From positions 186,001-250,000 of the IMG/VR virus record IMGVR_UViG_3300032334_001259: a DNA stretch of 64,000 nt. The stretch is one strand, 5' to 3'. This document shows, piece by piece, positions 6,020 through 23,607 of the stretch. The position numbers were made by a program, and so were the translations under genes. The notes below the pieces were generated by a model. That model searched no databases, had not been told where the DNA came from, and saw only the letters and a program-made list of their open reading frames with translations. The DNA comes from a virus. The stretch's first letter is position 1; each line of letters starts with the position of its first letter.

Positions 6020-6040
6020 ATTTAAAACAGGTTTTAAAAC

Positions 6041-7252: not shown

Positions 7253-7261
7253 GGATAAAAT

Positions 7262-7654
7262 ATGTCTACAATTGCAATACCTTTAGCTAATAAAGACAAA
7301 TATGAAAATAACTTGTTAGTTGTTTTAGATGGCATTAATGATGAAATGACTATTTCAAAGAAATCACATGATCCCAAAGTAATTGGTGTAACTACTGATT
7401 ATGACAATGCTGAATTAGGACTTAATGATTTTGGAGAAAATCCACACCGTCTTGTTGCTGTTAGTGGTCGTATTCTTTGCTATGTAAAGGGTCCAATTGG
7501 GTTTGGTGATTGCATTGTTACTAGTGATAAAGAAGGTGTTGGGCAAAAACTTGACCAAACAAAGTATGTTCCAGGTTGTATTATTGGAAAATCACTTACC
7601 ACTATAAAAGATAATAGTGTTGAATTAGTAGAGATGGTGCTGACTACTGCATAA
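7262..7654 (+). CDS. Fibre-associated protein, stand-alone copy of a fibre C-terminal domain
   Basis: 130 residues, with a strong Shine-Dalgarno (GAGGAT) before the ATG. The segment VSGRILCYVKGPIGFGDCIV parallels LKGRVPVKVIGPVEKGQALI in the C-terminal domain of the fibre protein at 4365: same spacing of GR, GP and G. The preceding KVIGVTTDYDN also matches RAIGVISEYP. I infer a small structural protein built from that domain alone, perhaps capping a fibre. It ends in a stop codon that overlaps the late-promoter heptamer of the next gene. No independent function is known to me. Confidence 0.5.
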   Translation: MSTIAIPLANKDKYENNLLVVLDGINDEMTISKKSHDPKVIGVTTDYDNAELGLNDFGENPHRLVAVSGRILCYVKGPIGFGDCIVTSDKEGVGQKLDQTKYVPGCIIGKSLTTIKDNSVELVEMVLTTA

Positions 7655-7657
7655 ATA
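7651..7657 (+). promoter_or_regulatory. T4-type late promoter core ATAAATA
   Basis: ATAAATA overlaps the stop codon of the preceding gene and lies 19 bases before the ATG at 7677, the usual distance seen for the other late-type sites in the window. Confidence 0.45.
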
Positions 7658-7676
7658 CCGTTGTGGGAATTTATAA

Positions 7677-8612
7677 ATGACATATGCCAGTGGCGGTATA
7701 ATCCAAGCATCAGATTTTAATACTCGTGTATCTGCAGTTAACGCATTGTGGGGCACTGGTGCTAATGCTAATGGATATGGTCAAGCAAGCACTGTTACTA
7801 CAACTTCTACTGGTACAGTTGTTCCTGCAACTGATTGGGCCACACTTATTGCACGTTTAACTTCTGCAAATCAGCACCAAGTAAACAATACCACTGGTAT
7901 TCCATCACAGCCTACTTCGGGTGGTATTATTACCTATCTTAATACATTAGACAGTGCTATTTCTACAATTAACACAAATAAACTTTCAAGTTTTGCACAA
8001 CAGGCGGCTGCTGCTTTTACAGCGGCACAAACTGCTTCTAGTAGCACTGCATGGACAACAAGTGCACAACGCACATTTACTGCAACTTTTGCTAATGCAG
8101 ATGCTGCACGTTACTTTTTTAATTCAAATGGTTATCTGGAAGTTAGTTTTGTCAATAATGCACTCGCTGGTAATAGTAAAAGTGATTATTGGCAAGCATT
8201 TTTAGCAAATGGTGTAAAACAACATATTTTAAGAGCAAATGCATCTTATTATACTGGAACTGGTTTTACTCCAAATACTAATTTGACTACACAAGGTTAT
8301 TATAACTTAACAAGAGGTCTTGCTACTTTCTTCCAAGTATATGATACTCCAAGTTCTGTTGATTATGTTAACAACTACATGAATATACAGTATGGCATTG
8401 GTAGTGCACAAAATGCTGGTGGTAATGGAGATAACGGTTCAGTTATCGTTATTAACGTTAATATGTTTGATGCTGCTGGTGACGTGTTAAACGATTCAGT
8501 TACTGGAAATACAGTAGTTCAAGTTCGTCCAGTTTACCCAGAAACAACTTATCTTACAACACAAAGTTGGGGCACTGTCACAATCGCTGCTAACGTCAAT
8601 ACTCAAGCATAA
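7677..8612 (+). CDS. Virion structural protein, unknown
   Basis: 311 residues. The first ~65 contain SGGIIQASDFNTRVSAVNALWGTG, a pattern I recognise from phage tail-associated proteins. Residues ~95-125 are Ala/Ser/Thr-rich and the C-terminal half is beta-rich with aromatic residues (YYTGTGF, YYNLTRGLATFFQVYD). It is the last gene of the plus-strand structural block and has its own late-type promoter. It is followed by 36 bases that hold an early-type promoter rather than another late one, so it marks the boundary between the structural module and the radical SAM operon. Confidence 0.5.
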   Translation: MTYASGGIIQASDFNTRVSAVNALWGTGANANGYGQASTVTTTSTGTVVPATDWATLIARLTSANQHQVNNTTGIPSQPTSGGIITYLNTLDSAISTINTNKLSSFAQQAAAAFTAAQTASSSTAWTTSAQRTFTATFANADAARYFFNSNGYLEVSFVNNALAGNSKSDYWQAFLANGVKQHILRANASYYTGTGFTPNTNLTTQGYYNLTRGLATFFQVYDTPSSVDYVNNYMNIQYGIGSAQNAGGNGDNGSVIVINVNMFDAAGDVLNDSVTGNTVVQVRPVYPETTYLTTQSWGTVTIAANVNTQA

Positions 8613-8613
8613 T

Positions 8614-8642
8614 TTGACTTATTAATATTTTTTTGTTACAAT
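8614..8642 (+). promoter_or_regulatory. Sigma-70-like promoter for the radical SAM/glycosyltransferase operon
   Basis: TTGACT (8614-8619), a 17-base spacer and TACAAT (8637-8642), on the plus strand in the only gap between the structural block and the operon beginning at 8649. It is the only clear early-type promoter on this strand. The -10 box ends six bases before the ATG, so the predicted transcript would have almost no leader. Confidence 0.6.
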
Positions 8643-8648
8643 TTCAAT

Positions 8649-8969
8649 ATGACTCCAGAAGAACTACGTGAACGGGCTATTGACGCCTATAATCGTGATT
8701 TAGCAAAACAAAACATCCTTACTGCCATGGAATCACGCATGACAGTAAATTATTATGATGGTGTGTTTATTGTTACTCAAGAACTTATTAGTTTTTTAAA
8801 TGCTTGGCGTGACGAAGAAATTTATATGCTTGATGCTTATGATACACCAGTAAAAGTAAATGCTCATGTATTATTAATTCGCTGCAAGCAGCGTTGGCAA
8901 GAAGTTATGAATGAATTTGCTGTAGAATACGAAGAATATAAAAAGATTCGTAATGCAAGACAACTCTAA
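8649..8969 (+). CDS. Unknown protein, first gene of the radical SAM operon
   Basis: 106 residues, highly charged (many Glu, Arg and Lys). The N-terminus is helical (MTPEELRERAIDAYNRDLAK), followed by a short beta segment (VNYYDGVFIV) and a long C-terminal helix. No Shine-Dalgarno is visible before the ATG, which lies at about the predicted transcription start, so translation may be leaderless; an internal ATG at 8728 is a weaker alternative. It overlaps the next gene by 17 bases. I do not recognise the family. Confidence 0.6.
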   Translation: MTPEELRERAIDAYNRDLAKQNILTAMESRMTVNYYDGVFIVTQELISFLNAWRDEEIYMLDAYDTPVKVNAHVLLIRCKQRWQEVMNEFAVEYEEYKKIRNARQL

Positions 8970-9705
8970 AGGTTGTATCATATTTGCATACAACACAGAT
9001 AAAATCGATTATTTTAGTCAAGCGGTAGAAGCCGCTGATAGAGTAAATCATTTTCTTGATTTACCAGTTACTATTTTTACAAATGAAGAAAGAGAGTGTA
9101 AACACAATGTTATCATTACTGAAATTCCTCCAAAAAATTACAAACAAAGAAATATTTGGTACAACCGCAGCAGAACTGGAGCGTTTGATCTTACGCCTTA
9201 CAGTAAAACACTGGTGATTGATAGTGATTATTTCTTATGCACTGATACATTAAAATATCATATTGAAAGTCAAAAACCATTTTTAATTGCGAATGAAGTT
9301 TATAATCCAGTTAAAGGTGAGAAAACAATTTTTAATATTGGAAAAAGTCATGTTCCTATGATGTGGGCTACTATAATGATATTTGACAAAAGTGATGAAG
9401 CAAAACAAATATTTGAGTTTGCAAAAATTGTTGAAAAACATTATGACTATTATAGTAGGTTATATGGTTTTCATTATTCAAGTATAAGAAACGATTACAT
9501 TTTTAGTATAGCATGTCACGTAATGGGTGGTTATGGTTCTATATCTTATGCTTTAAAAAATTATCCTATTGTAAATTGCGATAGTCAAACATTTTATGAA
9601 AGTTTAGATAATAACAAACTTGTATACAAATATGCACATGATAAAATATACGGAAATAGATTACAAAATATAGATTTACATCTTATGAATAAAGGTCAAC
9701 TATGA
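8953..9705 (+). CDS. Glycosyltransferase-like protein with DxD motif
   Basis: 250 residues. The N-terminus (GCIIFAYNTDKIDYFSQAVE) looks like the first strand-helix of a GT-A fold. Residues 86-95 read TLVIDSDYFL, a hydrophobic strand followed by D-x-D, the metal/nucleotide-sugar site of GT-A enzymes. FNIGKSHVPMMWATIMIF and SIRNDYIFSIACHVMGG continue in the manner of GT8-like proteins. The acceptor is unknown. It overlaps both neighbours (17 bases upstream, ATGA downstream). Its DNA seems somewhat more AT-rich than that of the fibre genes. The fold is inferred from motif and topology only. Confidence 0.5.
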   Translation: MQDNSKGCIIFAYNTDKIDYFSQAVEAADRVNHFLDLPVTIFTNEERECKHNVIITEIPPKNYKQRNIWYNRSRTGAFDLTPYSKTLVIDSDYFLCTDTLKYHIESQKPFLIANEVYNPVKGEKTIFNIGKSHVPMMWATIMIFDKSDEAKQIFEFAKIVEKHYDYYSRLYGFHYSSIRNDYIFSIACHVMGGYGSISYALKNYPIVNCDSQTFYESLDNNKLVYKYAHDKIYGNRLQNIDLHLMNKGQL

Positions 9706-10544
9706 GTTCTGGTTACATATGTATTGCACAAAATAGTGGCGATGTAGATTATTTGCGTATGGCATATCTGCAAGCCTTAAGTTGTAAACTGACACAGACA
9801 ACATATAATAGTTTTAGTGTTATCGTAGATAAAGAAACTGCTGATTGTATAGAACAAAAATACATTGATGTATTTGATAATATTATTGTTATTAAAGATG
9901 ACCTTGCAAAAAATAGTAAAATTAAAATGCAGAACGAGTGTCAGGTTTTCAAGTATAGCCCTTATAAACAAACTATGAAAACCGAAGCAGACATGTTGTT
10001 TACTTCAAACTATGATGAGCTATGGTATGCTTGGAATGTTAGTAAGCAAGTTTTTTGTTCACATGTTTATACATATGACGGTCATTTAATCACAGATCGC
10101 AGTCAGCGTAAGTTGTTTGATGATAGTTTATTACCAAACGTTTATAGTGCTTGGACATATTTTTCATATGACTTGGAATGTAAACAATTTTATGATACAA
10201 TGCGTGTCATTATAGATGATTGGAATTATTACCGTGACAATTATCTTATAAACTGTCGTTATGATGAACCACGAACAGATGAAGTTTATGCACTTGCTTG
10301 TAAAATATTAGATATAAAATATAAAAGCAATGGTTTTGGGTTTGTTCATATGAAACCTAAACTTCAAAGAATTGCAACAAACTCAAGTTGGTCTGAAATG
10401 CTTTCATTTGAAGTTCATAACGATTTTGCACCAGTTATTGGTGGGTATAAGCAATCTAAACCACTGCATTATGTTGAGAAAACCTTTGTAACAGATGAAT
10501 TATTAGATAGATATGAGTATGAATTTAACAAAAGAAGAAGTTAA
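9702..10544 (+). CDS. Glycosyltransferase-like protein, diverged paralogue of the preceding gene
   Basis: 280 residues, starting on an ATGA overlap. The opening GYICIAQNSGDVDYLRMAYLQA and the segment KQTMKTEADMLF (~residues 89-100) align with the start and DxD region of the preceding protein, but the first Asp is Glu (E-A-D). The C-terminal region has DEVYALACKILD and GFGFVHMKP, where the neighbour has NDYIFSIACHVMGG. The DxD change may mean altered metal use or a non-catalytic partner. I infer that the two act on the same substrate as the radical SAM enzymes downstream, because all share one operon. Confidence 0.45.
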   Translation: MSSGYICIAQNSGDVDYLRMAYLQALSCKLTQTTYNSFSVIVDKETADCIEQKYIDVFDNIIVIKDDLAKNSKIKMQNECQVFKYSPYKQTMKTEADMLFTSNYDELWYAWNVSKQVFCSHVYTYDGHLITDRSQRKLFDDSLLPNVYSAWTYFSYDLECKQFYDTMRVIIDDWNYYRDNYLINCRYDEPRTDEVYALACKILDIKYKSNGFGFVHMKPKLQRIATNSSWSEMLSFEVHNDFAPVIGGYKQSKPLHYVEKTFVTDELLDRYEYEFNKRRS

Positions 10545-10740
10545 GGCTTGGTGGGATGAGTTTGAAAGAGAACTTGGAAAAATGGTAATGCCTTGTGTTC
10601 CTATGCCAGAACCTCCTCCGCCTCCACCTGTTTACAACCCAAGATGGCGGCATGGAAATACTTACTTTACACTTAAGAATGATATGCAATTTGCTGTTGA
10701 TAGTTCACATACAAACGCAATGGGCTGGAAATATGAGTAA
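10513..10740 (+). CDS. Small proline-rich protein
   Basis: 75 residues. The N-terminal half is an acidic amphipathic helix (NLTKEEVKAWWDEFERELGK), then PMPEPPPPPPVYNP, then a polar C-terminus. It overlaps the preceding gene by 32 bases and the next by 8; an ATG two codons downstream (10519) is an equally good start. A helix followed by a polyproline arm suggests a protein-protein adaptor, but nothing else supports this. I do not recognise a family. Confidence 0.55.
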   Translation: MSMNLTKEEVKAWWDEFERELGKMVMPCVPMPEPPPPPPVYNPRWRHGNTYFTLKNDMQFAVDSSHTNAMGWKYE

Positions 10741-11671
10741 TTTAGTTGATATAAGTGATCTTGATGTAATATTCTTAAGCTATAAAGAAACCAACGCTGA
10801 TAGCAATTGGTCTTATGTTCGTAGTTTTGTTCCGTGGGCAAAACGTGTTCATGGTATAGAAGGAAGTGATGCAGCCCACAAAGCTGCCGCATCAAAAAGT
10901 GAAACAGAGAGATTTATTCTTATTGATGGTGATAATCAACCAAACCCAGAATTTTTTAATCAACAATTAAGACTTAATGATGATAATAGTGAATGTGTAT
11001 TTCGTTGGCGTGCAAAAAATCACATTAATGGGTTATGCTATGGTAATGGTGGGTTGAGCAGTTGGACTAAAACTTTTGTTAATAATATGCGAACCCATGA
11101 AGCAAGTGACGGAAATACAGAAACAGCCGTTGAGTTCTGTTATTTTCAAAATTATTGGGCTATGCATGATGTTTGGAGTATAACATCACCAAATGGTAGT
11201 CCACAACAAGCATGGCAAGCAGGATTTCGTGAAGGTGTTAAACTTTGTCTTGACCGTGGTCGCCGTGTAAATCCAGAAGAATTTGAAAAGGCAACCTGGT
11301 TAGGCAATCGCACAAATCTTGTTATTTGGTGTAGTATCGGTGCTGATGTTGAATATGGCAAATATGCAATGTTGGGTGCTCGTCAAGGTGCTTTTAAAAC
11401 CATGTTCGATGATGATTGGGACTATACAGAAGTTCGTGATTTTGATAAGTTAGAAAATATTTGGAATGATAGTTTAGAATATAACGACAAAGAAAGTGAA
11501 ACGTTTGCAAGAATGTTGCGTAAACGTTTAAATCTTGATATAGTGACTTTTAATGCTGAACAAAGTAAATGGTTTAAAAATCATCAACGTACATATCAAA
11601 ATATTGATATTATGTTACCAGAAAGAGATGTAGGAAATGTCATCCGAAGTGCTGCTAGACAACTCTGGTGA
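10733..11671 (+). CDS. Glycosyltransferase-like protein with DGD motif
   Basis: 312 residues from the ATG at 10733. The frame stays open upstream, but that part overlaps the Pro-rich gene completely and has no protein character. Residues ~10-20 are the first strand (LDVIFLSYKE), followed by WAKRVHGIEGSDAAHKAAA. Residues 61-70 are FILIDGDNQP, a canonical GT-A D-x-D. NINGxxYGNGG-like and QAWQAGFREGVKL segments follow. The same succession (DVIF ... PxxK ... G ... AxKxAAxxS ... W/F-R-x-x-FRExxKL) recurs in the C-terminal half of the 511-residue protein at 19222, so two related domains flank the five radical SAM genes. Confidence 0.55.
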   Translation: MSNLVDISDLDVIFLSYKETNADSNWSYVRSFVPWAKRVHGIEGSDAAHKAAASKSETERFILIDGDNQPNPEFFNQQLRLNDDNSECVFRWRAKNHINGLCYGNGGLSSWTKTFVNNMRTHEASDGNTETAVEFCYFQNYWAMHDVWSITSPNGSPQQAWQAGFREGVKLCLDRGRRVNPEEFEKATWLGNRTNLVIWCSIGADVEYGKYAMLGARQGAFKTMFDDDWDYTEVRDFDKLENIWNDSLEYNDKESETFARMLRKRLNLDIVTFNAEQSKWFKNHQRTYQNIDIMLPERDVGNVIRSAARQLW

Positions 11672-13076
11672 TACTGCCACAGTTAACGAAGATAACACAT
11701 TAAAAAGTGATTTTCTAACCGCCGCTGAAAAAATGCAGCAGAAGTTAGGTAATTCACTTTGCCTTTCCAAATGGATGCAAACGAGTTTGCACCTAACAAC
11801 TGGTCATACTAATAGTTGCTACCATCCACCACTACATAGGATAAATGCAGATGATCTCACCGATAACCCCAGTGCACTCCACAACACTGAATTTAAAAAA
11901 ACGCAAAGACAGCGAATGCTACTTGGAGAACGCCCAGAAGAATGTAGTTACTGTTGGCGAGTTGAAGCCACAGGAAACTTATCAGATAGACATTACAGAT
12001 CGGGAGAACCTTGGGCTGCTAATAAGTATAATGAGATTCTTATTCAAGACCCCTTAACTTGGAATGTAAATCCAGCTTATGTAGAAGTAAATTTTAGTAA
12101 TGTTTGTAACTTACAATGTAGCTATTGTTCGCCACAATTTAGTAGTGCGTGGCAAAAGGAAATAAATGAAAACGGTGCTTATCCTACTTCTAATTCCCAC
12201 AATAGTCCTTCTTACTTTACTACTGATCGTAGAGTTATACCAAACAGGGAAAGTAATGTTTATGTTGATGCGTTCTGGCGATGGTGGCCAGAACTCTACC
12301 CAAACCTAAAACATTTTCGTATGACAGGCGGTGAACCACTGCTTGACAAAAACACTTATCGTGTATTTGATTATGTATTAGACCATCCTAAAAAAGATTT
12401 ACATCTAAACGTAACAAGTAACTTTAGCCAAGATGAATATGTATTTGAAAAATATCTCACTTATGTAAAGCATATGTGTGGTAATAAAGTGTTAGAGCAT
12501 TTCATGCAGTTTGTCTCTATTGATGGTTATGGTGAACGTGCTGAATATGGTCGTCATGGTCTTGATTTTAAACTTATGCAATCTAACGTTGAGAAGTTCT
12601 TAACAGATATACCAGGTCGTAATAGCGTAACTTTTATCATTACGATGAATGTGCTAAACATCACAAGTCTTAAAGAATTGATGCAATGGATACTTGAACT
12701 TCGTAACAAATACAATACAACGTATCAACGTGTTTGGTTTGATACTCCAATTCTTCGTGAACCTAAATGGCAATGTGTTGATATACTGCCAGAAAGTTAT
12801 GCTTGGTTCTTACAGAATATTGTTGATTGGATGAAGCCACAGACAGAAACGGTTGATACAAGATTTAATGGTTTTAAAGATTATGAAATAACTAAATTAC
12901 AACGTGTTGTAGATTGGATGCGTGAACATCACCGTGAAGATAATAAAGCTATGGCAGATTTTTATAAATTTTTTGCTGAACATGATAGCCGCCGCAAAAC
13001 TAATTTTTTACAAACCTTTCCAGAAATGGTAGAATGGTGGGATAATTGCAAATATTGGGCAGATAATGCGAAGTAA
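11637..13076 (+). CDS. Radical SAM protein (1 of 5)
   Basis: 479 residues. The radical SAM cluster motif is CNLQCSYC with Cys at 157, 161 and 164, followed by the S-adenosylmethionine-contacting MTGGEPLL. Upstream of the core are extra cysteines (C42, C61 and the pair C103/C106 in ECSYCWR), a SPASM/twitch-like arrangement placed at the N-terminus that may bind an auxiliary iron-sulfur cluster. Such enzymes modify peptides, sugars or other substrates by radical chemistry; the substrate is unknown. The start overlaps the previous gene by 35 bases with a Shine-Dalgarno (AGGA) very close to the ATG, so a slightly later start is possible. Confidence 0.8.
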   Translation: MSSEVLLDNSGDTATVNEDNTLKSDFLTAAEKMQQKLGNSLCLSKWMQTSLHLTTGHTNSCYHPPLHRINADDLTDNPSALHNTEFKKTQRQRMLLGERPEECSYCWRVEATGNLSDRHYRSGEPWAANKYNEILIQDPLTWNVNPAYVEVNFSNVCNLQCSYCSPQFSSAWQKEINENGAYPTSNSHNSPSYFTTDRRVIPNRESNVYVDAFWRWWPELYPNLKHFRMTGGEPLLDKNTYRVFDYVLDHPKKDLHLNVTSNFSQDEYVFEKYLTYVKHMCGNKVLEHFMQFVSIDGYGERAEYGRHGLDFKLMQSNVEKFLTDIPGRNSVTFIITMNVLNITSLKELMQWILELRNKYNTTYQRVWFDTPILREPKWQCVDILPESYAWFLQNIVDWMKPQTETVDTRFNGFKDYEITKLQRVVDWMREHHREDNKAMADFYKFFAEHDSRRKTNFLQTFPEMVEWWDNCKYWADNAK

Positions 13077-14424
13077 AAAACCAGAAGAATCTTTTTTAGA
13101 ATATAAACAACGTGTGTTAGATACAAAAAGTAAATCTTTTTGTGGTGCTAAATGGTATAATGCAACTATATGGCTTGGTAGTGGACAAACGACAAGTTGT
13201 CACCACCCACTTCCGCATACTATACCTGTAAATGAATTAGAAAAAAATCCAAGTGTATTGCATAACACATATCAAAAGAAGACTGAACGTGCAATGATGC
13301 AACAGGGGGAACGTCCAAAAGGATGTGAATATTGTTGGCGTATTGAGGATAACAGTGATATAGCTATCAGTGACCGTCCTTACAAAAGTATGATATATAG
13401 TGAAGAAGAATTGAACGAGGCATTTCGTCTACCATTTGATACTGACGTAAATCTTCGCACTTTGGAGATAGCCTTTGATAGAACTTGTAACTTTGCTTGT
13501 AGCTATTGTAATCCCGCTTTTAGTACTACTTGGGTTAAAGACATTAAAGTTAATGGACCATACGTTGACCTTGTTAGCGATGGTCGCAATCATTTTACCC
13601 ATATACATGATTCTTCTCAGCTATATAGTTTCTCTGATACGAATCCATATGTAGAAGCATTCTTTAAATGGTGGGAAACTGACCTATATAAGACACTACG
13701 TGAATTACGTATAACTGGTGGTGAACCACTTATGAGTGGACATACATGGAAGTTGCTTGATTGGTTTAAAAACAATCGTGGTAAAAGCCGAACGAAACTT
13801 GCAATTAACAGCAATCTTGGTATTGAACGAGAAAAACTTGTAGAGTTTGTAGATAATATTCGTGAATTGCCACACGTTGAAGTTTATACAAGTTGTGAAG
13901 CATTTAAAGAGCAAGCTGAATATATTCGTGATGGTTTAAATTATTATCAATGGTTTGATAATTTAGTTTACCTACAAAATAGTGGTGCTGTTAAACAATT
14001 ACACGTAATGGCAACTATTAATGGATTATGTTTGCCATCATTACCAAATTTTCTTGAACACATGATGGATTTTAAAATGGGTTATGGTCGTGATAGTTTA
14101 ACTGTTACACTTAACATTTTGCGTTTCCCAAGTTTTCAAAGTCCAATTGTAATGCCATATGGTATCAAAGAAGAATGCGCTGTTGCTCTTGAAAAGTTTT
14201 TAGAACGACATGAACATGGAAAATATTTGCATCAAATGGAAATTGAACATGTTAAACGTTTAATTCAATATTTACGTACAACAACAACTCCACATGAAGG
14301 TGCAAGTCACATTGATATTTTAGAAAAAGATTTTAAAAACTTCTATGAACAATACGACAAACGCCGTGGTAAAGATTTTATTGAAACTTTTCCTGATTTA
14401 GAAGATTGGTATAATGGCATATAA
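13066..14424 (+). CDS. Radical SAM protein (2 of 5)
   Basis: 452 residues, the closest relative of the preceding gene: CNFACSYC (C141, C145, C148), ITGGEPLMSG and the same N-terminal cysteine set (C26, C45, C87/C90 in GCEYCWR). Both have SCxHPxxH near residue 45-60 and a C-terminal tail of the type FYxxxDxRRxxxFxxTFPxxxxW, so they look like tandem duplicates. It overlaps its neighbours by 11 bases on each side. Two adjacent near-paralogues may act as a heterodimer or on successive positions of one substrate; this is inference. Confidence 0.8.
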   Translation: MRSKKPEESFLEYKQRVLDTKSKSFCGAKWYNATIWLGSGQTTSCHHPLPHTIPVNELEKNPSVLHNTYQKKTERAMMQQGERPKGCEYCWRIEDNSDIAISDRPYKSMIYSEEELNEAFRLPFDTDVNLRTLEIAFDRTCNFACSYCNPAFSTTWVKDIKVNGPYVDLVSDGRNHFTHIHDSSQLYSFSDTNPYVEAFFKWWETDLYKTLRELRITGGEPLMSGHTWKLLDWFKNNRGKSRTKLAINSNLGIEREKLVEFVDNIRELPHVEVYTSCEAFKEQAEYIRDGLNYYQWFDNLVYLQNSGAVKQLHVMATINGLCLPSLPNFLEHMMDFKMGYGRDSLTVTLNILRFPSFQSPIVMPYGIKEECAVALEKFLERHEHGKYLHQMEIEHVKRLIQYLRTTTTPHEGASHIDILEKDFKNFYEQYDKRRGKDFIETFPDLEDWYNGI

Positions 14425-15685
14425 CTATAACGGCAAAGAACCAATTAAAATTGCTGTTGACGATTTAACAGATTCTCAAAAACATTTAATCTTTGAGAAC
14501 AAATCATTTTGTATGTATCCTTGGATTCATCTTCATGCATTTCCAACAGGAGAAGCATATCCGTGTTGTAATACCGAGATGCCTGAACTTGTAGGTAACA
14601 CTCGCCATAATACAATAGAAGAAATTTGGCATGGATCGGCAATGCAAGATGTTCGTAATAAGATGCTTGCTGGTGAACCAGTAAAAGGTTGCAGTCGTTG
14701 TTATGAGCAAGAAGACAATGGTTTTTTCAGTATGCGCATGAGTGCTAATAAACACTTTGGACATCATATTGCACTGACAGACAATCCCACACCGCCAATG
14801 AAAATGATTTATTGGGATATACGTTTTAGTAATTTATGCAATCTTCGTTGTCGCAGTTGTGGTCATATCTTTAGTTCAAATTGGTATGATGATCAAGTTA
14901 AACTTGCAGGTGAAGAGTGGGGAAAAAATAACAAACGTATCAATTTTGCTGGTCGCAATGAAGATGATATTTGGAATCAGCTTGAACCGCAGATTGATAA
15001 TCTTGAACAAGTATATTTTGCTGGCGGTGAACCACTTATCATGGAAGAACATTACCGTTTGCTTAAAGAACTTATTAAGCGTGGTCGTCACGATGTTCGT
15101 CTCATTTACAATACAAACTTTACACAAACAGTTTATAAGAAAACAAATGTGTTTGAACTTTGGCGTGAGTTTAAAAGTGTAAGTGTTGGAGCAAGTTTAG
15201 ACGCAATGGGTAAACACGCCGAGTATATTCGCAAGAATACGGTATGGGCAGATGTTGAACGCAATCGTGAAGAAATGTTAAAGATATGTCCACGTGTAGA
15301 TTTTTATATAAGTCCAACATTAAGTGTTATGAATGCATTACACTTACCTACTTTTCATCGTGATTGGGTAGAACGTGGATTTTTAAAACCGCAAGATTTA
15401 AATATTAATATATTGCAAGATCCACCTCATTATCGTATTGATATACTGCCATTTCAATATAAAGTTGATGTGCAAGAACTTTATTTGGAGCATATTGATT
15501 GGCTTAAACCCCAAGATTACCTGAAACGAGCAACTGCTGGATTTGAAAGTGCAATTAACTTTATGATGGCAGATGATAAGAGTAATTTGCTAGAAAAGTT
15601 TATTACTAAGACAGTTCAACTAGATAAGATACGAAATGAAAATATTTTGGAATCCATTCCAGAAATGAGATTTATTCATGAATAA
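14414..15685 (+). CDS. Radical SAM protein (3 of 5)
   Basis: 423 residues. CNLRCRSC (C142, C146, C149) and FAGGEPLI form the core. The N-terminal cysteine region (C33 in CMYPW, C51-C52, C93/C96 in GCSRCYEQE) is present with the sequence YPCCN, which differs from copies 1 and 2 but matches copies 4 and 5. The subgroup formed by 3-5 starts with a C-x-x-P-W/F motif typical of the auxiliary region in SPASM-like proteins. The C-terminus ends ESIPEMRFIHE, parallel to the tails of the others. No other domain is fused. Confidence 0.8.
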   Translation: MAYNYNGKEPIKIAVDDLTDSQKHLIFENKSFCMYPWIHLHAFPTGEAYPCCNTEMPELVGNTRHNTIEEIWHGSAMQDVRNKMLAGEPVKGCSRCYEQEDNGFFSMRMSANKHFGHHIALTDNPTPPMKMIYWDIRFSNLCNLRCRSCGHIFSSNWYDDQVKLAGEEWGKNNKRINFAGRNEDDIWNQLEPQIDNLEQVYFAGGEPLIMEEHYRLLKELIKRGRHDVRLIYNTNFTQTVYKKTNVFELWREFKSVSVGASLDAMGKHAEYIRKNTVWADVERNREEMLKICPRVDFYISPTLSVMNALHLPTFHRDWVERGFLKPQDLNINILQDPPHYRIDILPFQYKVDVQELYLEHIDWLKPQDYLKRATAGFESAINFMMADDKSNLLEKFITKTVQLDKIRNENILESIPEMRFIHE

Positions 15686-16841
15686 TTTTTGTGTATTACC
15701 ATTTACTAGTATTGAAGCAGATCCAATGGGTAAATGTAAGGTATGTTGTTTATCAAAAACTACTATACCAAATATTGACCTTAAAACTAATACATTAACA
15801 GAAGCATTTAACAGTGATTACATGCGTAATTTAAGACAACAATTTTTACAAGATGAAAAACCAAGTGAATGTGAACGTTGTTGGACAGAAGAAGCAAGTG
15901 GACGCACTAGTAAACGTATGCACAGCACTATGCGACTTCAAAAAATTTTGCAAAATAAATCTTTTACTAAAGATACTGATGGTGAACTTATTTTTCTTGA
16001 TCTTAAACTTGGAAATATTTGTAATTTGAAGTGTAGAATATGTGGTAGCTTTAGTAGCAGTAAATGGGCACAGGAAGAAATTGATATATTTAAAAATAAC
16101 AATACAGCACGTGAAAATCTTGAAAATGGACGTTGGCCACGTGAAGCAAACAATTTTTGGAAAGATTTAGCAGATTTATTATCAAATACAAAATATTTTG
16201 AATTTACGGGTGGCGAACCATTTCTTATTGACGAACACTTTACATTATTAGAAATTGCAGTCAAGATGGGTTATGCAAAAGATATTGAATTGCATTACAA
16301 TACTAATACTACTACTTTTCCTAAACGTGGTTTAGAATTGTGGCCAAATTTTAAATTGGTTGAAATTGCCCTATCAATTGATGATATGGGTAAGCGGTTT
16401 GAATATCAAAGATTTGGAACAAAATGGGAAACTACTCTTGAAAATTTAGAACGTTTTAGACAATTAAGACAAAACAATAAAAATATAAAGCTACAACTGT
16501 GTTTAACTGTTAATGTACTAAATGTTTACTATCTTGATGAAATTTGTAAATGGATACCAAAACAAAAATTTAATTATGTTTATTTTAACGTATTGCATGA
16601 TGCCTGGTATTTTAGTATCAAACATTTTACTCAACGTGCTAAGGATTTAGTTAATGAAAAATATAAAAATTATACTGGTTTTTACGCTGATGAAATAAAA
16701 AATTTAATAACATTTATGAATCAGGGTGTTAGTAGTGATGGAACTGATTTGGTAAGAATACTTAAGCAAAGTGACATACAGCGTAATCAAAAGTTTAGCA
16801 ATTATCATAGTGAGATAGCGGCGGCAATTGGTTATGAATGA
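15678..16841 (+). CDS. Radical SAM protein (4 of 5)
   Basis: 387 residues, the shortest of the five. The core motif is CNLKCRIC (C115, C119, C122), followed by FTGGEPFL. The N-terminal auxiliary cysteines are C5 (NNFCVLPF), C20/C23/C24 and C65/C68 (ECERCWTEE). The shorter length comes mainly from a reduced linker between the N-terminal cysteine region and the core. It starts 8 bases inside the preceding gene. Like its relatives it has no signal peptide or membrane segment, so it should act in the cytoplasm. Confidence 0.8.
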   Translation: MNNFCVLPFTSIEADPMGKCKVCCLSKTTIPNIDLKTNTLTEAFNSDYMRNLRQQFLQDEKPSECERCWTEEASGRTSKRMHSTMRLQKILQNKSFTKDTDGELIFLDLKLGNICNLKCRICGSFSSSKWAQEEIDIFKNNNTARENLENGRWPREANNFWKDLADLLSNTKYFEFTGGEPFLIDEHFTLLEIAVKMGYAKDIELHYNTNTTTFPKRGLELWPNFKLVEIALSIDDMGKRFEYQRFGTKWETTLENLERFRQLRQNNKNIKLQLCLTVNVLNVYYLDEICKWIPKQKFNYVYFNVLHDAWYFSIKHFTQRAKDLVNEKYKNYTGFYADEIKNLITFMNQGVSSDGTDLVRILKQSDIQRNQKFSNYHSEIAAAIGYE

Positions 16842-18126
16842 TTTTTGTTTGGCACCTTGGACCCACACATATATATCACCACAAGGTGAGCGTAGGTTAT
16901 GCTGTGCATCACGAGAACCCGCACAAAATTTTAAACAGTATATTGACACTGAACACGGAAATGGTGAATTTCAAGCCTTAGCACTAGAGGAATGGTGGAA
17001 TGGTGAACATATTAGAAGAATAAGAAAAGAGTGGTTATCTGGAACAATCCCAAAAGAATGTGAAGTATGCGATAAAAAGTTACTTAATACTTCTGTTTAT
17101 CGTGATTACTTTGCTCATCTCTTCGGTCATTTACGGAAGGATATTATTTCTTCTACTGACCATGAAGGTTATACAACCATAGAACCAATATCCTGGGATT
17201 ATCGTTATAGTAATGTATGCAACTTTAAGTGCCGTATGTGTGGTGACATGTTAAGTAGTGCATGGGAAGTTGAAGTGCGTAAAAATGATATGGTTGACAT
17301 AAAAAATCCAAAGAACTATTGGATGCAACCAAAGAATCGCCATGCTATTCGTGATTTTACTCGTGATGTAGTAATACCAGAATTTCGTGAAGCTATAGAA
17401 AACAAAACTGTGCGTGAAATCTATTGGGTAGGCGGTGAACCACTATTGTATGACGAACACTGGACTTTCATGCGCCGCATCGTTGAATTAGGTTATGCAG
17501 ATCAGGTCCGTGTGCGGTATAATACGAATTTAAGTTATACTAAAGATAAAGATGGAACTCTTTGGGATTTATTACACCACTTTCCACATTGGGAAATATG
17601 TGCAAGTTTAGATGGAACAGGAGATATTGGTGAGTATATTAGAAGTGGTCTTAATTATAATGATTGGTTGGATAATTTTAAACAAGGAATCCAACATCAG
17701 CGACATGTTCGCCAAATGCGTATTGATTTTACTCTTACTTTGCCTGGTTTATATGATCTGGCCAATATTATTAATCTTGTTGATTCTCTTAATGTTTCCC
17801 TATTAAGTAAAGTAGTATTTGCTTTTAGCCCTGATATATTATTAAGTCCATTAGCTTTACCTCGTAATATATTAATACCACTTATAGAAAATATACAAGA
17901 AAATATAAAATCAAAAATAACTTACAGAACTCAAAGTTTGTGGGATGTATTGGAACATCTTAAAACTCGTCAAACTTTTGAAGAAGAATTTCCTGACAAT
18001 TATAAACAAGAGGCAAAACGAGGTAAGGCGCATCTTTTAAAATTGGAATCTATTCGTAAAGATGCTAAAATAAAATTAGAAGATATCTTAACTGGTGATA
18101 CCTTAGATTGGTGGAATAGTATATGA
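16834..18126 (+). CDS. Radical SAM protein (5 of 5)
   Basis: 430 residues from the ATG at 16834, chosen over an in-frame TTG two codons earlier because ATG is stronger and the 8-base overlap is typical of this operon. The core motif is CNFKCRMC (C129, C133, C136) with WVGGEPLL, where the usual T of TGGEP is V. The auxiliary cysteines are C5 (NDFCLAPW), C23-C24 and C76/C79. The C-terminus ends DTLDWWNSI. The next gene starts on an ATGA overlap, so it is very probably translated together with the unknown protein that follows. Confidence 0.8.
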   Translation: MNDFCLAPWTHTYISPQGERRLCCASREPAQNFKQYIDTEHGNGEFQALALEEWWNGEHIRRIRKEWLSGTIPKECEVCDKKLLNTSVYRDYFAHLFGHLRKDIISSTDHEGYTTIEPISWDYRYSNVCNFKCRMCGDMLSSAWEVEVRKNDMVDIKNPKNYWMQPKNRHAIRDFTRDVVIPEFREAIENKTVREIYWVGGEPLLYDEHWTFMRRIVELGYADQVRVRYNTNLSYTKDKDGTLWDLLHHFPHWEICASLDGTGDIGEYIRSGLNYNDWLDNFKQGIQHQRHVRQMRIDFTLTLPGLYDLANIINLVDSLNVSLLSKVVFAFSPDILLSPLALPRNILIPLIENIQENIKSKITYRTQSLWDVLEHLKTRQTFEEEFPDNYKQEAKRGKAHLLKLESIRKDAKIKLEDILTGDTLDWWNSI

Positions 18127-19229
18127 ATGTTGTAATGACCCTTCGCAATCCGTTAGACAAAACAGATTTTTTAAATGTTTTTATTGAACCTAATGATACC
18201 CAACTTGCAAAAGATTGGCAAGCAGCATTGCAGTTTGAGATACAGCGCAACTCTATTTTGGAAAAAAATTATTGTTGGCATGGTTGGCCAAATGGTGCAA
18301 GAAACCTACAATATCTTACTAGCGAATTAAGTCGTCATGCACTTAACATATGGAAGTTTAACGAACTAGGAATCTGGCAAGGTTTAGGACTACCTAATAT
18401 TAAAATTGAAACTGTTTATACGCCTGAAACAGTTATGCTTCCGCTCACAGATGAACCTGATAGTGGTGGACCAAACCACGATGTTATGAATATAGTGCAT
18501 AATCATTTTGAACATCTGCAAGGAACTGTAGAAAATCTTAGTCCATACTACAAGATTGCACCACCAAATATAAAGTATAGCATAAGACAATTAAACAATC
18601 TTTGCCATGAGATTGAAACATTATGTTTAAGTTTGCGTAAGCAAAAACACAAACCAGATTGGATTCGTCCTAGCCAGATTACAACCTTTTTAAATGCTAA
18701 AAGATATAATTTAACAGATGAACATCGTAATGGTTTTTTAACAAATGGACATGACCGAAAGTTTGCACATGTTTATATGCATTGGACACAGATTGGCAAA
18801 ACATTACTTGAAGTATTTCGTGATGAAGATGCACCACACCTTAATCAAGTAACGTGTGATGCTATAACACATTTACAATATTACAGTGGCGAGTTTGATA
18901 TTGAATGGGGGCGTGATGTTTGTTATGGAAAACATGATTGGCATACACAAGAGATTGATAAGTTCAATGACTGGTTAAAGCGTGAAGGATATGACCCAAA
19001 CAATAAATCTTTAAGTCTTGGTTATCTTGAAATTGGTAAGATTGATCTTGAAATGAGTTTTGGAACCACTGACATTTCTACAATATGGGATGTTATGGGC
19101 GACTATCTTGACATATACAGCCTTGAAGTAGATGGAGACCATGCTATCTATGATTATAGTTGGGCTGACGAAAACCATGAACAACGCCAAATTGATTATT
19201 TGATGCCTGGTTATCGCAGTCATGTTTGA
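18123..19229 (+). CDS. Unknown 368-residue protein at the end of the radical SAM array
   Basis: No family recognised. The protein is mixed alpha/beta, rich in His, Trp and Asp, with CWHGWPNGARN (~residue 50), a central helical HNHFEHLQG segment, YMHWTQIGKTLLEVFRDEDAPHL (~220-240) and FDIEWGRDVCYGKHDWH (~260-276). The frequency of His, Asp and Cys in conserved-looking patches suggests metal binding, but no known metalloenzyme signature is clear. Its place directly after the fifth radical SAM gene, with ATGA coupling, makes it a candidate substrate, chaperone or partner enzyme. Confidence 0.6.
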   Translation: MNVVMTLRNPLDKTDFLNVFIEPNDTQLAKDWQAALQFEIQRNSILEKNYCWHGWPNGARNLQYLTSELSRHALNIWKFNELGIWQGLGLPNIKIETVYTPETVMLPLTDEPDSGGPNHDVMNIVHNHFEHLQGTVENLSPYYKIAPPNIKYSIRQLNNLCHEIETLCLSLRKQKHKPDWIRPSQITTFLNAKRYNLTDEHRNGFLTNGHDRKFAHVYMHWTQIGKTLLEVFRDEDAPHLNQVTCDAITHLQYYSGEFDIEWGRDVCYGKHDWHTQEIDKFNDWLKREGYDPNNKSLSLGYLEIGKIDLEMSFGTTDISTIWDVMGDYLDIYSLEVDGDHAIYDYSWADENHEQRQIDYLMPGYRSHV

Positions 19230-20757
19230 TATAGTTTGGTATGATTACAGCGATGGTGATATTCAACATTTAATTGCGAAAGCTAAACAAAGTAGCAAAA
19301 CAGAATATGTTTGGCTTGCACATCGTCAACTAGATTATGTAAACTTTAATTTTCGTTGGATGCCTAACCGTCATCAACTACAATACAAACACGCTTGGCC
19401 AAGTCATAACAATGCAGAACATTATACTACATGGCTTATACCTGTTTATAATGATAGCGGAATAGTGCATCATGATCAACTCGTACCAACGATTGATACA
19501 AAATATTATGATACATGTTTGTTGAATACAAATAGTTTTGATAATGCACATACGGTAGATTTTCAAGTTCGTTTAATAACTACCATGCAAACTGCAATTG
19601 ATACCGCAGTTAAAAAATCAACCAAACCTTGGTTGTGGATTATTGCGGATTGTTGTGAGTATGATGGGTTTGATTTTAATTGGTTACCAAATAATCATGA
19701 GATGAATTATATTCACTGCTGGCCAAGTGGAACATGTGAAAAGGGTGATACATTTTTAATTAATGTTGATGCTTATAAACGAGGTGAACGCAATTATAAT
19801 TTTAATCATGAACCTATCAAACGTAAACGTTGGCCAAGTACAAAGGTTACGCATGATAGTTTGGTACAGGAACTTAATGCAACTCCTAGACTAAATGCAA
19901 TTTACACCGTATATTCTTATGTTGGATTTATAGATTATCCAGATGTTTGTCTGTGGGAAAAACGACCTGTGGTTAGTTTAAATCGTAGCAATAGCAGTTG
20001 TCTTGTTCCACGTGATTGTGTTGTAAAAAAAGAAATATACGAATATCCATATCTTATACGTGAAACAAGTTATGGATTTGATCTTGCAATCGATGTTATT
20101 TTTATTGAGAATGGTGAAAGTTGTGCAAAAGAAAATTATGAAAGATTGAAAAAGTTAGAACCATTGACAAAATACTGTGCTGGTGTAAATGGCAGATTAG
20201 CTGCATATAAAAATGCTGCAAACCAAAGTAACAGTGATTGGTTCATTGCTGTGTTTGCAAAGTGTCATGTGAAAGACAATTTTGACGATTTTGATTGGCA
20301 ACCAGATTTTTGGCAAGAACCTAAACATTATATTTTTTATAATCACAATCGTAATAATAATTTGACATATGGACACATGGCACCTATTGCCTACAATACA
20401 AAACTAATTTTACAAAATACGGGTGGTCTTGATATGACATTGGCGCAAATGCACACCACCGTGCCAATTTGTATAAGTGAAACCTATATTGAAGATGATC
20501 CATGGTTGACATGGCGAACTGCGTTTCGTGAGGTAATTAAACTACTTCATTATAGTAAGAATAATCCAAGCGTTGAAAATGAATATCGACTATGGTCATG
20601 GAAAAATATAACAAATGGAAATGATGCTATTTGGCAACAGCGTGGTGTTAAAGATGCAGAAGATTATTATAAAATGTGTGGCGACAATGAAGATGCACTA
20701 ATGTTGACAAGTGAATGGGATTGGTTGCAGGCACATTATTCATCTTTACAAAGATGA
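19222..20757 (+). CDS. Three-repeat protein with a C-terminal glycosyltransferase-like domain
   Basis: 511 residues. A short motif occurs three times: FNFRWMPN (43-50), FDFNWLPN (150-157) and FDDFDWQPD (354-362). The first two are followed by H-x-x-x-Y-x-H-x-WPS. Each sits at the same point of a ~100-200-residue unit that begins with a strand such as YVWLAHRQ, LWIIADCC or WFIAVFAKC. The last unit (residues ~290-450) aligns with the DGD-type glycosyltransferase-like protein at 10733 but carries AKCH where that protein has DGD, so its catalytic Asp pair appears lost. I infer a triplicated GT-A-like scaffold. It overlaps the convergent aminotransferase gene by 12 bases. Confidence 0.5.
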   Translation: MFDIVWYDYSDGDIQHLIAKAKQSSKTEYVWLAHRQLDYVNFNFRWMPNRHQLQYKHAWPSHNNAEHYTTWLIPVYNDSGIVHHDQLVPTIDTKYYDTCLLNTNSFDNAHTVDFQVRLITTMQTAIDTAVKKSTKPWLWIIADCCEYDGFDFNWLPNNHEMNYIHCWPSGTCEKGDTFLINVDAYKRGERNYNFNHEPIKRKRWPSTKVTHDSLVQELNATPRLNAIYTVYSYVGFIDYPDVCLWEKRPVVSLNRSNSSCLVPRDCVVKKEIYEYPYLIRETSYGFDLAIDVIFIENGESCAKENYERLKKLEPLTKYCAGVNGRLAAYKNAANQSNSDWFIAVFAKCHVKDNFDDFDWQPDFWQEPKHYIFYNHNRNNNLTYGHMAPIAYNTKLILQNTGGLDMTLAQMHTTVPICISETYIEDDPWLTWRTAFREVIKLLHYSKNNPSVENEYRLWSWKNITNGNDAIWQQRGVKDAEDYYKMCGDNEDALMLTSEWDWLQAHYSSLQR

Positions 20758-21846
20758 AATTACAGTTTGAATAATATAATCAACTTGTTCATCAGTAAGA
20801 TGTGTATGACTTGGCAAACTAATTATTTTACCAGATAAAGATTCACTTTTAACACACTGATGTTGATTCCACTGTTTAGCAAATTTTTGAGTATGCAATG
20901 GATGTTTATAATGACTGCTATAATTTATTTTTGCATTTTTTAAGTAATTGCATGTTTTTTCATAATCGTTGGTTACAATTGGCATAACATACCAATTATA
21001 GAGATTTTGAAATGCAAATTTTGGAATTTTAATTTGATTGTGATTTGAAAATGCTTCACAATATTTTTTAATTATTTGGACTTTTCTTGTGAAAATTTTT
21101 TCATAATTTTTAATATTTGCTGTAATAAGTGCAGCTTGTATACTTGTTATTCTGGATGTAAATCCAACATTATCAATATTACTATCAAAACCATAAAAAG
21201 ATTTACCATTTGAGCAAATTGAATCTAATAATAATGTATCAATTTTGTTAGTGATGATTGCACCACCACCGCCAGCACCCCCAAAATTTTTGTAAGGATT
21301 AAAACTTATACAAATAGCATCTGCTATAGTTTGATCATAATCTTTTGTTGTTATACTAAAACTCTGTGCAGCATCAATGATAAGTTTTAAATTTCTCTCG
21401 TCACACCATTTCTTTAAATTATAAATGTCACAACCTTGACCATATAAATCAACGACTAAAACAGCACTTACTTCATTAGCATACAAATTATAAACACGAG
21501 TAAGATCATTTAAATCTAACAACCAACTGTCATCAATATCAACAAATGTTGGAATACAATTAGCATTTAAAACAGACTGCGCAGTAGCTGCATATGTCAT
21601 TGTTGGTATTAATATTCTTGAATCTTTTGGAAGATTTAACGATAAGATACCTGCATGTAATGCGGCCGTGCATGTGCTTGTTAATTGCACACTTGCATTA
21701 TTATATAAATTACTAATAAATTTTTTTAATTCAATCTCATGTTGACCACGATAAACTTCACCGTATTCTAAAGTAAATTTTAAATTTTTTAAAATTTCTT
21801 CATTATTGTCTTGATATTGTAAATCCAAATCCGAAAATTTTATCAT
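20746..21846 (-). CDS. DegT/DnrJ/EryC1-type sugar aminotransferase
   Basis: 366 residues, normal length for the family. These PLP enzymes transfer an amino group to a keto-sugar nucleotide. Visible features are TSTCTAALHAG (~57-66, PLP phosphate contact), LIPTMTYAATA (80-89), DAAQS (158-162, where Asp pairs with the pyridine ring) and SFNPYKNFGGAGGGG with the Schiff-base Lys at 186. The start lies on an ATGA overlap with the epimerase stop, so the two probably supply one modified sugar. The gene looks more AT-rich than thymidylate synthase nearby, which hints at separate acquisition. The sugar cannot be named. Confidence 0.85.
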   Translation of the reverse strand: MIKFSDLDLQYQDNNEEILKNLKFTLEYGEVYRGQHEIELKKFISNLYNNASVQLTSTCTAALHAGILSLNLPKDSRILIPTMTYAATAQSVLNANCIPTFVDIDDSWLLDLNDLTRVYNLYANEVSAVLVVDLYGQGCDIYNLKKWCDERNLKLIIDAAQSFSITTKDYDQTIADAICISFNPYKNFGGAGGGGAIITNKIDTLLLDSICSNGKSFYGFDSNIDNVGFTSRITSIQAALITANIKNYEKIFTRKVQIIKKYCEAFSNHNQIKIPKFAFQNLYNWYVMPIVTNDYEKTCNYLKNAKINYSSHYKHPLHTQKFAKQWNQHQCVKSESLSGKIISLPSHTHLTDEQVDYIIQTVISSL

Positions 21847-22715
21847 AGTAATATTTTTATACCACTTTCTAAATCAACTTTGGGGGTATAACCAAGATAT
21901 CTAACAGCAGTGCGTGTATCCATTGCACCACGACGAGGCATGTCCTCTGGTAAATCACGACCACAAATAATTTCACTTTCGCTTTGTGTCAATTCAACGA
22001 TAAGTTTAGCCGCATCATACAAACTTACAGCTTGACCATAACTCACATTAGCAATAACTTTGCTTACTGGTGATGTGGCAGCATTAACGATTGCTTGTGT
22101 AATATCACTTACATATGTAAAGTCAAGTTTAGCTAATGGATCATCTACATTAATTGGTTCATTATTTCTAGCTGATAATATCCATTTACTGATTACTCTG
22201 TTAGGATTATCACCAATTCCATATGCAGCCGTTGGTCTTGTGATAACCCAATTCTTTGCAATATCCTGAACTAATCGTTCACATGCAAGTTTAGCTTTAC
22301 CGTAATCATTAATGGGACGAAGTGGATCATCTTCACGAACAGTTCCAACCCAATTTCCATAAACCATGCTACTGCTTATATAAACAAACTTTGCATTTGG
22401 GTATTTGGTTAATAGATATACAGTTGAATTAATAGTGTTTTGCCAAGCATTGCCAATTTCTTTTGCAAAACTTGCTTGGTTAGGATGGCAAGCAAGATGA
22501 ACAATAACATCTACATCTTCTACAATGGTTTGTGCACAATCACAATTTAACCAATCATCATAACCATAATCCATACGACGACCACGATCAAGATATAATT
22601 GTGTTGTAATAAAACGTAGGTCATCAACAATTGTTACCTTATGTTTTTTATTCTTAAGTGAATTTACAACATGATGACCAATAAACCCAAAACCACCCGT
22701 AACTAAAACGTGCAT
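21843..22715 (-). CDS. NAD(P)-dependent sugar-nucleotide epimerase/dehydratase (extended SDR)
   Basis: 290 residues. The Rossmann motif GGFGFIG is at residues 7-13, VIVHLACHPNQ corresponds to the H-x-A-A/C region, YISSSMVYG gives the catalytic Ser, and NDYGKAK is the YxxxK active site. VTRPTAAYGIG and DFTYVSDI are also typical of the family (the latter as D-F-x-Y-V-x-D). It works on a nucleotide sugar, probably upstream of the DegT-type aminotransferase it is coupled to. It is slightly shorter than GalE (about 340), lacking part of the C-terminal substrate domain. Confidence 0.85.
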   Translation of the reverse strand: MHVLVTGGFGFIGHHVVNSLKNKKHKVTIVDDLRFITTQLYLDRGRRMDYGYDDWLNCDCAQTIVEDVDVIVHLACHPNQASFAKEIGNAWQNTINSTVYLLTKYPNAKFVYISSSMVYGNWVGTVREDDPLRPINDYGKAKLACERLVQDIAKNWVITRPTAAYGIGDNPNRVISKWILSARNNEPINVDDPLAKLDFTYVSDITQAIVNAATSPVSKVIANVSYGQAVSLYDAAKLIVELTQSESEIICGRDLPEDMPRRGAMDTRTAVRYLGYTPKVDLESGIKILL

Positions 22716-22716
22716 A

Positions 22717-23607
22717 TTAGACCGCCATATCTGCTTTAATAGTTTGGTGATGAATATAATTCATTAAACGGATATCATCCATTTGCGCTGTCCACACATC
22801 TTTAACATCACTTAAGTCAAGATGCGGTAATGGAAATGGGCGACGACTCATTTGTTCTTTAACCTGTTCAATATGGTTATTATAAATGTGAACATCACCA
22901 AATGTCAAGATTAATTCGCCAACTTGTGCCCTAATTGTTTTGGCAATAAGATGCGTTAGCAATGCGTAGCTTGCGATATTAAATGGTACACCCAAAAATA
23001 AATCAGCACTGCGTTGATACATCTGACAACTTAAAATATTATTACGAATATAAAATTGTGCAAACATATGACAAGGTGGTAATGCCATATCTTTAAGTTC
23101 AGCAGGATTCCATGCTGTCAAAATATGACGACGACCAGTAGGGTCTTTTTTAAGACCATCAATTAATTCTGCAAGCTGGTCAGTTTCACGATAATTTATT
23201 TTGTTTAGGTTGCTATCTGGTTTAAATGGATTACCAGCTTCGTCTACTGAACGCCAATGTCGCCATTGAACACCATACACACGACCTAAATCACCATCAT
23301 ACTTTGCTTTTGGTTTCCAGTATGGTGCTTTTGCATTTGCAGTCCAGATAGTTGTTTTATCTTTATCACGTGTGCCGTGTAGTATTTCTGCAAGACGGCG
23401 TTCATCACCACTGCCCTCAATAAACCAAAGTAGTTCACTTACTACACTCTTCCATGCAAGTTTCTTTGTTGTAACTGCTGGAAATCCTTCTTGTAAATTA
23501 AAACGTAATTGTTCACCAAAAAGACTAACTGTGCCTACGCCTGTTCTGTCTTCACTTTGGGTGCCATCTAAAATAACTTTTGCACATAAATGATTATAAT
23601 TTTGCAC
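22717..23607 (-). CDS. thyA: Thymidylate synthase
   Basis: 296 residues. It converts dUMP and methylene-tetrahydrofolate to dTMP. The catalytic Cys is in LPPCHMFAQF (C179); RSADLFLGVPFNIASYALL and the earlier DRTGVGTVSLFG are signature segments, and the C-terminus ends IKADMAV as in many ThyA proteins. The start is GTG and overlaps the DHFR gene by 14 bases; residues from there (MQNYNHLCAKVILDG) match the usual ThyA N-terminus, which supports it. The pair ThyA-DHFR regenerates the folate used by ThyA and supplies dTTP for phage DNA. Confidence 0.95.
   Translation of the reverse strand: MQNYNHLCAKVILDGTQSEDRTGVGTVSLFGEQLRFNLQEGFPAVTTKKLAWKSVVSELLWFIEGSGDERRLAEILHGTRDKDKTTIWTANAKAPYWKPKAKYDGDLGRVYGVQWRHWRSVDEAGNPFKPDSNLNKINYRETDQLAELIDGLKKDPTGRRHILTAWNPAELKDMALPPCHMFAQFYIRNNILSCQMYQRSADLFLGVPFNIASYALLTHLIAKTIRAQVGELILTFGDVHIYNNHIEQVKEQMSRRPFPLPHLDLSDVKDVWTAQMDDIRLMNYIHHQTIKADMAV

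Follow-up and report, generated by a model that had tools for sequence, protein, structure and literature searches.

A run of overlapping genes in a T4-like phage encodes five predicted, intact N-twitch radical S-adenosylmethionine (SAM) enzymes, framed by glycosyltransferase (GT)-like proteins and kept in the same order in every viral relative found to hold all five. The genes lie on the + strand at positions 8649–20757 of a 64,000-nucleotide stretch (the window), which corresponds to bases 186001–250000 of the 338,435-base IMG/VR virus record IMGVR_UViG_3300032334_001259. With moderate confidence, we interpret this cassette as a module of the host-recognition (tail-fibre) region that assembles and tailors a glycan: the GTs would build it and the radical SAM enzymes would tailor it.

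The record, a T4-like phage of 338 kb, contains a T4-type Gp23 capsid gene (7.7e-99) and encodes a phage-type DNA polymerase (phrog_262). An earlier annotation made from the letters alone (the sequence-only reading) had proposed an operon of ten genes at this position. Its bounds were right, the first gene opening with an ATG at 8649 and the last closing with a stop at 20757, and the genes do form a single run in which each adjacent pair overlaps by 4–35 nt. The gene number was not: we count 12 open reading frames (ORFs), and that reading's own list sums to 11. In order, the genes are g1, GTa, GTb, a small proline-rich protein, GTc, the radical SAM genes R1–R5, U1 and U2 (Table 1).

R1–R5 are predicted to be intact N-twitch radical SAM enzymes

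We compared R1–R5 with NF033640 (NCBIfam N_Twi_rSAM, twitch domain-containing radical SAM protein), which has a curated cut-off of 170 bits. All five exceeded the cut-off in near full-length matches of 292–400 bits. Among 32–40 non-redundant orthologues per gene, the CX3CX2C and GGE motifs were present in nearly all, no family lacking them in more than one row. The N-terminal auxiliary (twitch) cysteines, four in R1 and R2 and five in R3–R5, were conserved at 0.95–1.0, except for the first cysteine of R5 (0.58), where the low figure may come from start-codon trimming. R3–R5 also matched the SPASM Pfam family over its cut-off. These scores and motifs uphold the proposal of five radical SAM proteins with N-terminal auxiliary cysteines and, as far as sequence can tell, R1–R5 are intact enzymes of the N-twitch type. 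The best sequence match of the R3 N-terminus in the PDB was the twitch domain of BtrN (E 0.0016), a dehydrogenase acting on an amino-cyclitol. The match is confined to the auxiliary domain, which is C-terminal in BtrN.

Two accessory genes bear on activity. In a cluster of 16 relatives, a PNP_UDP_1 protein that reads like a methylthioadenosine/S-adenosylhomocysteine (MTA/SAH) nucleosidase is encoded between R4 and R5 (L059:13859-14431). MTA/SAH-nucleosidase-like enzymes clear 5′-deoxyadenosine, and this protein may do the same. An A-type Fe-S carrier gene (PF01521) was present in all five cassette-bearing virus records tested (G000, G194–G197). Together with the intact clusters, these genes support the view that R1–R5 are enzymatically active. 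The five are not candidates for viperin-like antiviral nucleotide enzymes, since they scored only 17.6–35.2 bits against the prokaryotic viperin model NF038283 (cut-off 180).

The same virus record holds further radical SAM genes. A sixth N-twitch member over the cut-off lies near 271 kb (L242), beside an ORF reading like asparagine synthase, and three others, which by eye look to be of the cobalamin-binding type, lie near 276, 78 and 283 kb (L001, L002 and L003).

The cassette is inherited as a unit and is under purifying selection

Scanning with R3 recovered 79 viral loci or contigs. All five radical SAM genes were present in 68, and R1–R5 order was kept in 68 of 68; single, unlinked copies in relatives, which the sequence-only reading had named as evidence against itself, were not seen. 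A larger core of g1, GTa, GTb, GTc, R1–R5 and U1 was held by 52 contigs, in order in 51 of them. The incomplete contigs were largely cut by the contig end. The cassette occurs across freshwater and marine T4-like phages, and in relatives it contains sugar genes: GDP-mannose dehydratase, GHMP kinase, cytidylyltransferase-like, carbamoyltransferase, FkbM methyltransferase and epimerase.

Comparison of the window with three relatives gave NG86 dN/dS values of 0.03–0.34 for nearly all cassette genes. Thus, the cassette is under purifying selection. Against one relative (L017), R4 and U2 were far more divergent than their neighbours (dN 0.36 and 0.45, versus 0.01–0.12), as if both had been swapped by recombination.

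The five enzymes were distinct before the phage family radiated

Median identity was 49–64% within each R orthologue group and 22–32% between groups. R1 and R2 share 31% identity and R3 shares 27–28% with R4 and R5, while identity across these subgroups is 22–24%. Both identity and a maximum likelihood tree of 89 radical SAM rows agree with the earlier division into subgroups 1-2 and 3-5. In the tree, R1, R3, R4 and R5 are each monophyletic, as is R2 save for one extra phage paralogue nested inside it.

The tree does not favour the stepwise duplication within the phage that had been suggested to explain these subgroups. For every one of the five phage clades, proteins of Bdellovibrionota form neighbouring or immediately outer branches; the division into five is thus older than the phage family. 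By this tree the five were distinct before the family radiated, and we reject recent stepwise duplication inside the phage.

We examined the Bdellovibrionota relatives. NF033640 matches over the cut-off were found in 55 of 192 genomes. A contig of Bacteriovoracaceae UBA6144 (L124), chromosomal to judge by nearby ORFs that by eye are Obg-like and L27-like, carries eight N-twitch genes in a row at 6040-18036, including relatives of all five R genes. Of seven Bdellovibrionota genomes tested, three had GTc relatives, and several of these relatives were near N-twitch genes. At L218 and L258, GTc relatives adjoin N-twitch radical SAM genes, and at L257:16389-18293 a single ORF of 635 aa joins a radical SAM part to a GTc/U2-like part, a natural fusion. 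The chromosomal clusters resemble the phage cassette in their relatives of all five R genes and, in other Bdellovibrionota, in GTc relatives next to N-twitch enzymes, with one radical SAM–GTc fusion. Unlike the cassette, they vary in gene order and number, and U1 was not found in the four Bdellovibrionota genomes tested.

GT2 genes also adjoin other N-twitch clusters, where they make up 5 of 68 neighbours. Beyond Bdellovibrionota, the sequences of bacterial N-twitch neighbours read as scattered polysaccharide-type genes, with no common pathway past that.

GT-like partners and two large proteins

The three GT-A-like proteins of the sequence-only reading fared unequally. The AlphaFold2 model of GTa (predicted local distance difference test, pLDDT, 89.9) aligned with glycogenin over 193 residues (Z 14.8, root-mean-square deviation 3.9). 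The PDB gave 138 matches at E≤1e-3, led by GT-A enzymes, with folds of the GT8, GT6 and GT24 types. Both aspartates of its DxD motif were invariant in 28 of 28 sequences. Thus, the predicted structure of GTa has a GT-A fold. As neither GTa nor GTb matched Pfam Glyco_transf_8 over the cut-off, we call GTa GT8-like by fold only and do not file it in GT8. GTb stands by its homology to GTa; its match to glycogenin itself was weak (E 0.02). The case for GTc is weak: 7 of 27 members had weak matches to GT2 Pfam families (best E 0.0045), the GTc of the window had none, and its sequence search against solved structures returned only noise.

U1 and U2 were the two large proteins for which no family had been proposed. 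U1 matched no Pfam family, including the cyclophilin sequence family. Its AlphaFold2 model resembled cyclophilin-type folds at Z 8–9 over 133–139 residues, while Foldseek gave no PDB match at E≤0.001. We therefore have moderate confidence in a cyclophilin-like fold, a resemblance of predicted structure with Z scores near the level of chance arrangements. Invariant polar residues (H126, E130, C161, H162, E163 and E165) lie in or around the helical insert. The C-terminal half of U2 is a GTc homologue, so that GT-like proteins frame the radical SAM genes on both sides, as had been described. In relatives, U2 ranges from about 440 to over 1300 aa.

Enzymes of this kind could also act on nucleic acid: radical SAM enzymes and GTs might hypermodify phage DNA bases against host nucleases. 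Phage DNA glycosyltransferases exist, some thymidine hypermodifications involve radical SAM enzymes, and ORFs at 22717-24091 read as thymidylate synthase-like and DHFR-like. However, GTa matches GT8/GT6/GT24-type folds with no DNA glucosyltransferase among the 50 matches listed, and bacterial chromosomes encode a homologous set of radical SAM proteins. We consider DNA modification very improbable.

A proposed glycan-assembly and tailoring module and its alternatives

Several lines of evidence support a cassette that assembles and tailors a glycan. They are the co-conservation of its genes, the dN/dS values, the fold and DxD motif of GTa, the sugar genes in relatives' cassettes, the GTc neighbours and fusion in Bdellovibrionota, the BtrN match, the mixture of N-twitch and GT genes in Vibrio phage K566 (described below) and the precedent of pelagimyophages, whose host-recognition regions bring GT8 genes together with radical SAM cassettes next to tail fibres (PMC7029224). 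In such a module, GTa and GTb (GT8-like) and GTc (GT2-like) would transfer sugars to an acceptor, either an adhesin on the virion or a lipid at the host surface. By means of SAM and a [4Fe-4S] cluster, each of R1–R5 would abstract a hydrogen from that sugar or from the acceptor, while its N-terminal twitch cluster would relay electrons or anchor the substrate. The outcome would be oxidation, epimerisation or dehydration, specific to a different position for each enzyme. U1 and U2, the latter GT-like but lacking DxD, may act as scaffolds or additional enzymes. The tail-fibre neighbourhood and the pelagimyophage precedent suggest that the product could serve host recognition or the exclusion of competing phages. 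The carbohydrate substrate, the reaction types and the membership of all five enzymes in one pathway are what we infer from this evidence.

Other results weigh against a glycan. None of GTa, GTb and GTc of the window exceeded a Pfam cut-off. No GT could be recognised next to the eight-gene cluster of L124, and searches of that genome recovered neither GTc nor U1. We also examined the N-twitch copies that the same viruses carry away from the cassette. These isolated copies sit among ordinary phage genes, and no GT families were among the 25 commonest Pfam matches of their neighbours; thus, the N-twitch family is not always tied to GTs. Finally, SPASM/twitch radical SAM enzymes act most often on peptides.

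That preference would suit a pathway of protein maturation, in which the five enzymes epimerise, hydroxylate or cross-link residues of a virion protein, the GTs glycosylate the same protein and U1 is a folding helper. The most likely substrate would be the tail fibres encoded upstream (tail-fibre-type PHROG matches at 4365–5993 and 6041–7252). The position of the cassette directly behind tail-fibre genes is conserved in relatives. The U1 fold resembles peptidyl-prolyl isomerases, and in Aeromonas phage 332-Vera eight radical SAM genes lie within the tail-fibre cluster (PMC12390700). Several observations make this reading unlikely. The cassette has its own promoter, behind what by eye is a terminator-like hairpin in many relatives; the tail-fibre proteins diverge much faster than R1–R5; and Bdellovibrionota hold the radical SAM set without phage tail fibres.

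A peptide could instead be made within the cassette, with g1 or the proline-rich protein as the precursor of a ribosomally synthesised and post-translationally modified peptide (RiPP)-like product that is matured by the five enzymes and glycosylated. Small proteins do lie upstream of the enzymes, and some RiPP clusters combine radical SAM/SPASM proteins with GTs. Against this, alignment revealed no leader/core organisation in the small proline-rich protein, whose middle is conserved in relatives; no RiPP recognition element (RRE) or maturase model exceeded its cut-off; and no protease or exporter was recognised in the cassette. The small ORFs are thus unsupported as precursors, and we regard a RiPP-like product as improbable. 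The proline-rich protein occupies the position that a small phage protein has in relatives and, in the clade of the window, is a version of it shortened internally.

The sequence-only reading had considered plausible a pathway for an unusual modification of a sugar, peptide or nucleotide, and our results agree, with the glycan module as our preferred form of it. A broader extension is tentative: N-twitch radical SAM enzymes might form a glycan-tailoring class, and these phages, along with Bdellovibrionota, might possess a complete, co-inherited five-step pathway that makes a sugar structure new to biochemistry.

Relation to other radical-SAM-rich phages

Five radical SAM genes in a row had been called striking for a phage. 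The five genes are there, but phages with this many radical SAM genes have precedents: Campylobacter phages CP220 and CPt10 have five-radical-SAM modules (PMC2853527), 332-Vera has the eight genes described above (PMC12390700) and a marine genome of T4-like type contains twelve (PMC5332604). CP220/CPt10 share with our cassette five radical SAM coding sequences in a phage gene cluster, and an amidinotransferase-like ORF, judged by eye and without a Pfam match, is likewise present in one of the relatives (L080). However, no CP220 protein reached the NF033640 cut-off (best 30.9 bits), and we reject the module as a homologue. A general boost to host metabolism was proposed for those phages (PMC2853527), and our genes might likewise be metabolic boosters or interchangeable accessories without one dedicated pathway. 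Since the five orthologues are never separated among our contigs and are under purifying selection, and the CP220 proteins fall below the family cut-off, we give this explanation little credence.

The pelagimyophages share the setting, being T4-like aquatic phages with GT8-like and radical SAM genes in a tail-fibre neighbourhood. Theirs are described as variable cassettes (PMC7029224), whereas the present cassette is a fixed 10-gene core in at least 50 contigs. Cultured Vibrio phage K566 carries several N-twitch radical SAM genes interspersed with GT genes, two of them GT8 and one GT4-like, but its proteins are very divergent (~22% identity) and none matched U1. U1 was not found in the cultured phages searched, and Atu_ph07, a lead from a viral fold search, had no N-twitch match over the cut-off.

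Within the N_Twi_rSAM family, it is specifically this cassette and its relatives in Bdellovibrionota that keep the five orthologous subgroups together. Our search found no assigned function for NF033640 and no open-access paper describing a fixed five-orthologue cassette, the U1 and GTc partners or a Bdellovibrionota counterpart. Reports of phages laden with radical SAM genes go back to 2010, with no function assigned. A fixed, inseparable five-enzyme set with defined GT partners and a bacterial chromosomal counterpart turns an anecdote into a tractable pathway, and cultured Vibrio phages offer distant relatives of it. Should the product be a glycan, radical chemistry would join the routes to surface sugars of viruses or bacteria.

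Promoter and neighbouring genes

The sequence-only reading placed the operon under a single early-type promoter. A sigma70-like promoter does lie at the operon start, although single matches of this quality are frequent by chance (92 found versus 88 expected). Its position is conserved: scores of at least 8/12 occurred there in 24 of 31 non-redundant relatives, compared to 1–9 of 32–42 at the other cassette genes tested. Because the -10 hexamer is 6 nt upstream of the ATG in 19 of the 31, the cassette mRNA is predicted to be leaderless.

Table 1. Features of the cassette and its surroundings (window positions)
Feature	Position	Strand	Evidence
Sigma70-like promoter, TTGACT-17-TACAAT	8614..8642	+	Sequence; 6 nt before g1 ATG (8649)
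g1, conserved small protein (106 aa), first gene of the operon	8649..8969	+	ORF; orthologues in 60 contigs
GTa, GT-A-fold glycosyltransferase-like	8953..9705	+	AlphaFold2 model; invariant D90-x-D92, C-terminal H243/K247
GTb, GTa paralogue, ExD in place of DxD	9702..10544	+	hhalign 99.4% to GTa
Small protein, Pro-rich middle	10513..10740	+	Alignment
GTc, GT2-like protein, invariant D64-x-D66	10733..11671	+	Weak GT2 Pfam matches; invariants
R1, N-twitch radical SAM	11637..13076	+	NF033640 335.7 bits; invariant Cys
R2, N-twitch radical SAM	13066..14424	+	NF033640 307.8 bits; invariant Cys
R3, N-twitch radical SAM	14414..15685	+	NF033640 400.1 bits; SPASM PF13186 42.5 bits
R4, N-twitch radical SAM, most divergent of the five between relatives	15678..16841	+	NF033640 342.6 bits
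R5, N-twitch radical SAM	16834..18126	+	NF033640 292.3 bits
U1, predicted cyclophilin-like barrel, helical insert at ~residues 58-180	18123..19229	+	AlphaFold2 pLDDT 89.8
U2, repeat protein, C-terminal half homologous to GTc but without DxD	19222..20757	+	hhalign 99.7% to GTc
DegT/DnrJ/EryC1/StrS aminotransferase, convergent, not conserved core	20746..21846	-	PF01041 3.7e-57
NAD-dependent sugar epimerase/dehydratase, convergent, not core	21843..22715	-	PF01370 5.6e-32

The DegT aminotransferase and epimerase that had been noted across the convergent junction are present in the window, as Pfam matches confirm, but most marine relatives lack them. By eye, an ORF reading like a GIY-YIG homing endonuclease lies between GTb and GTc in two contigs (L019:5508-6062 and L022:4497-5051).

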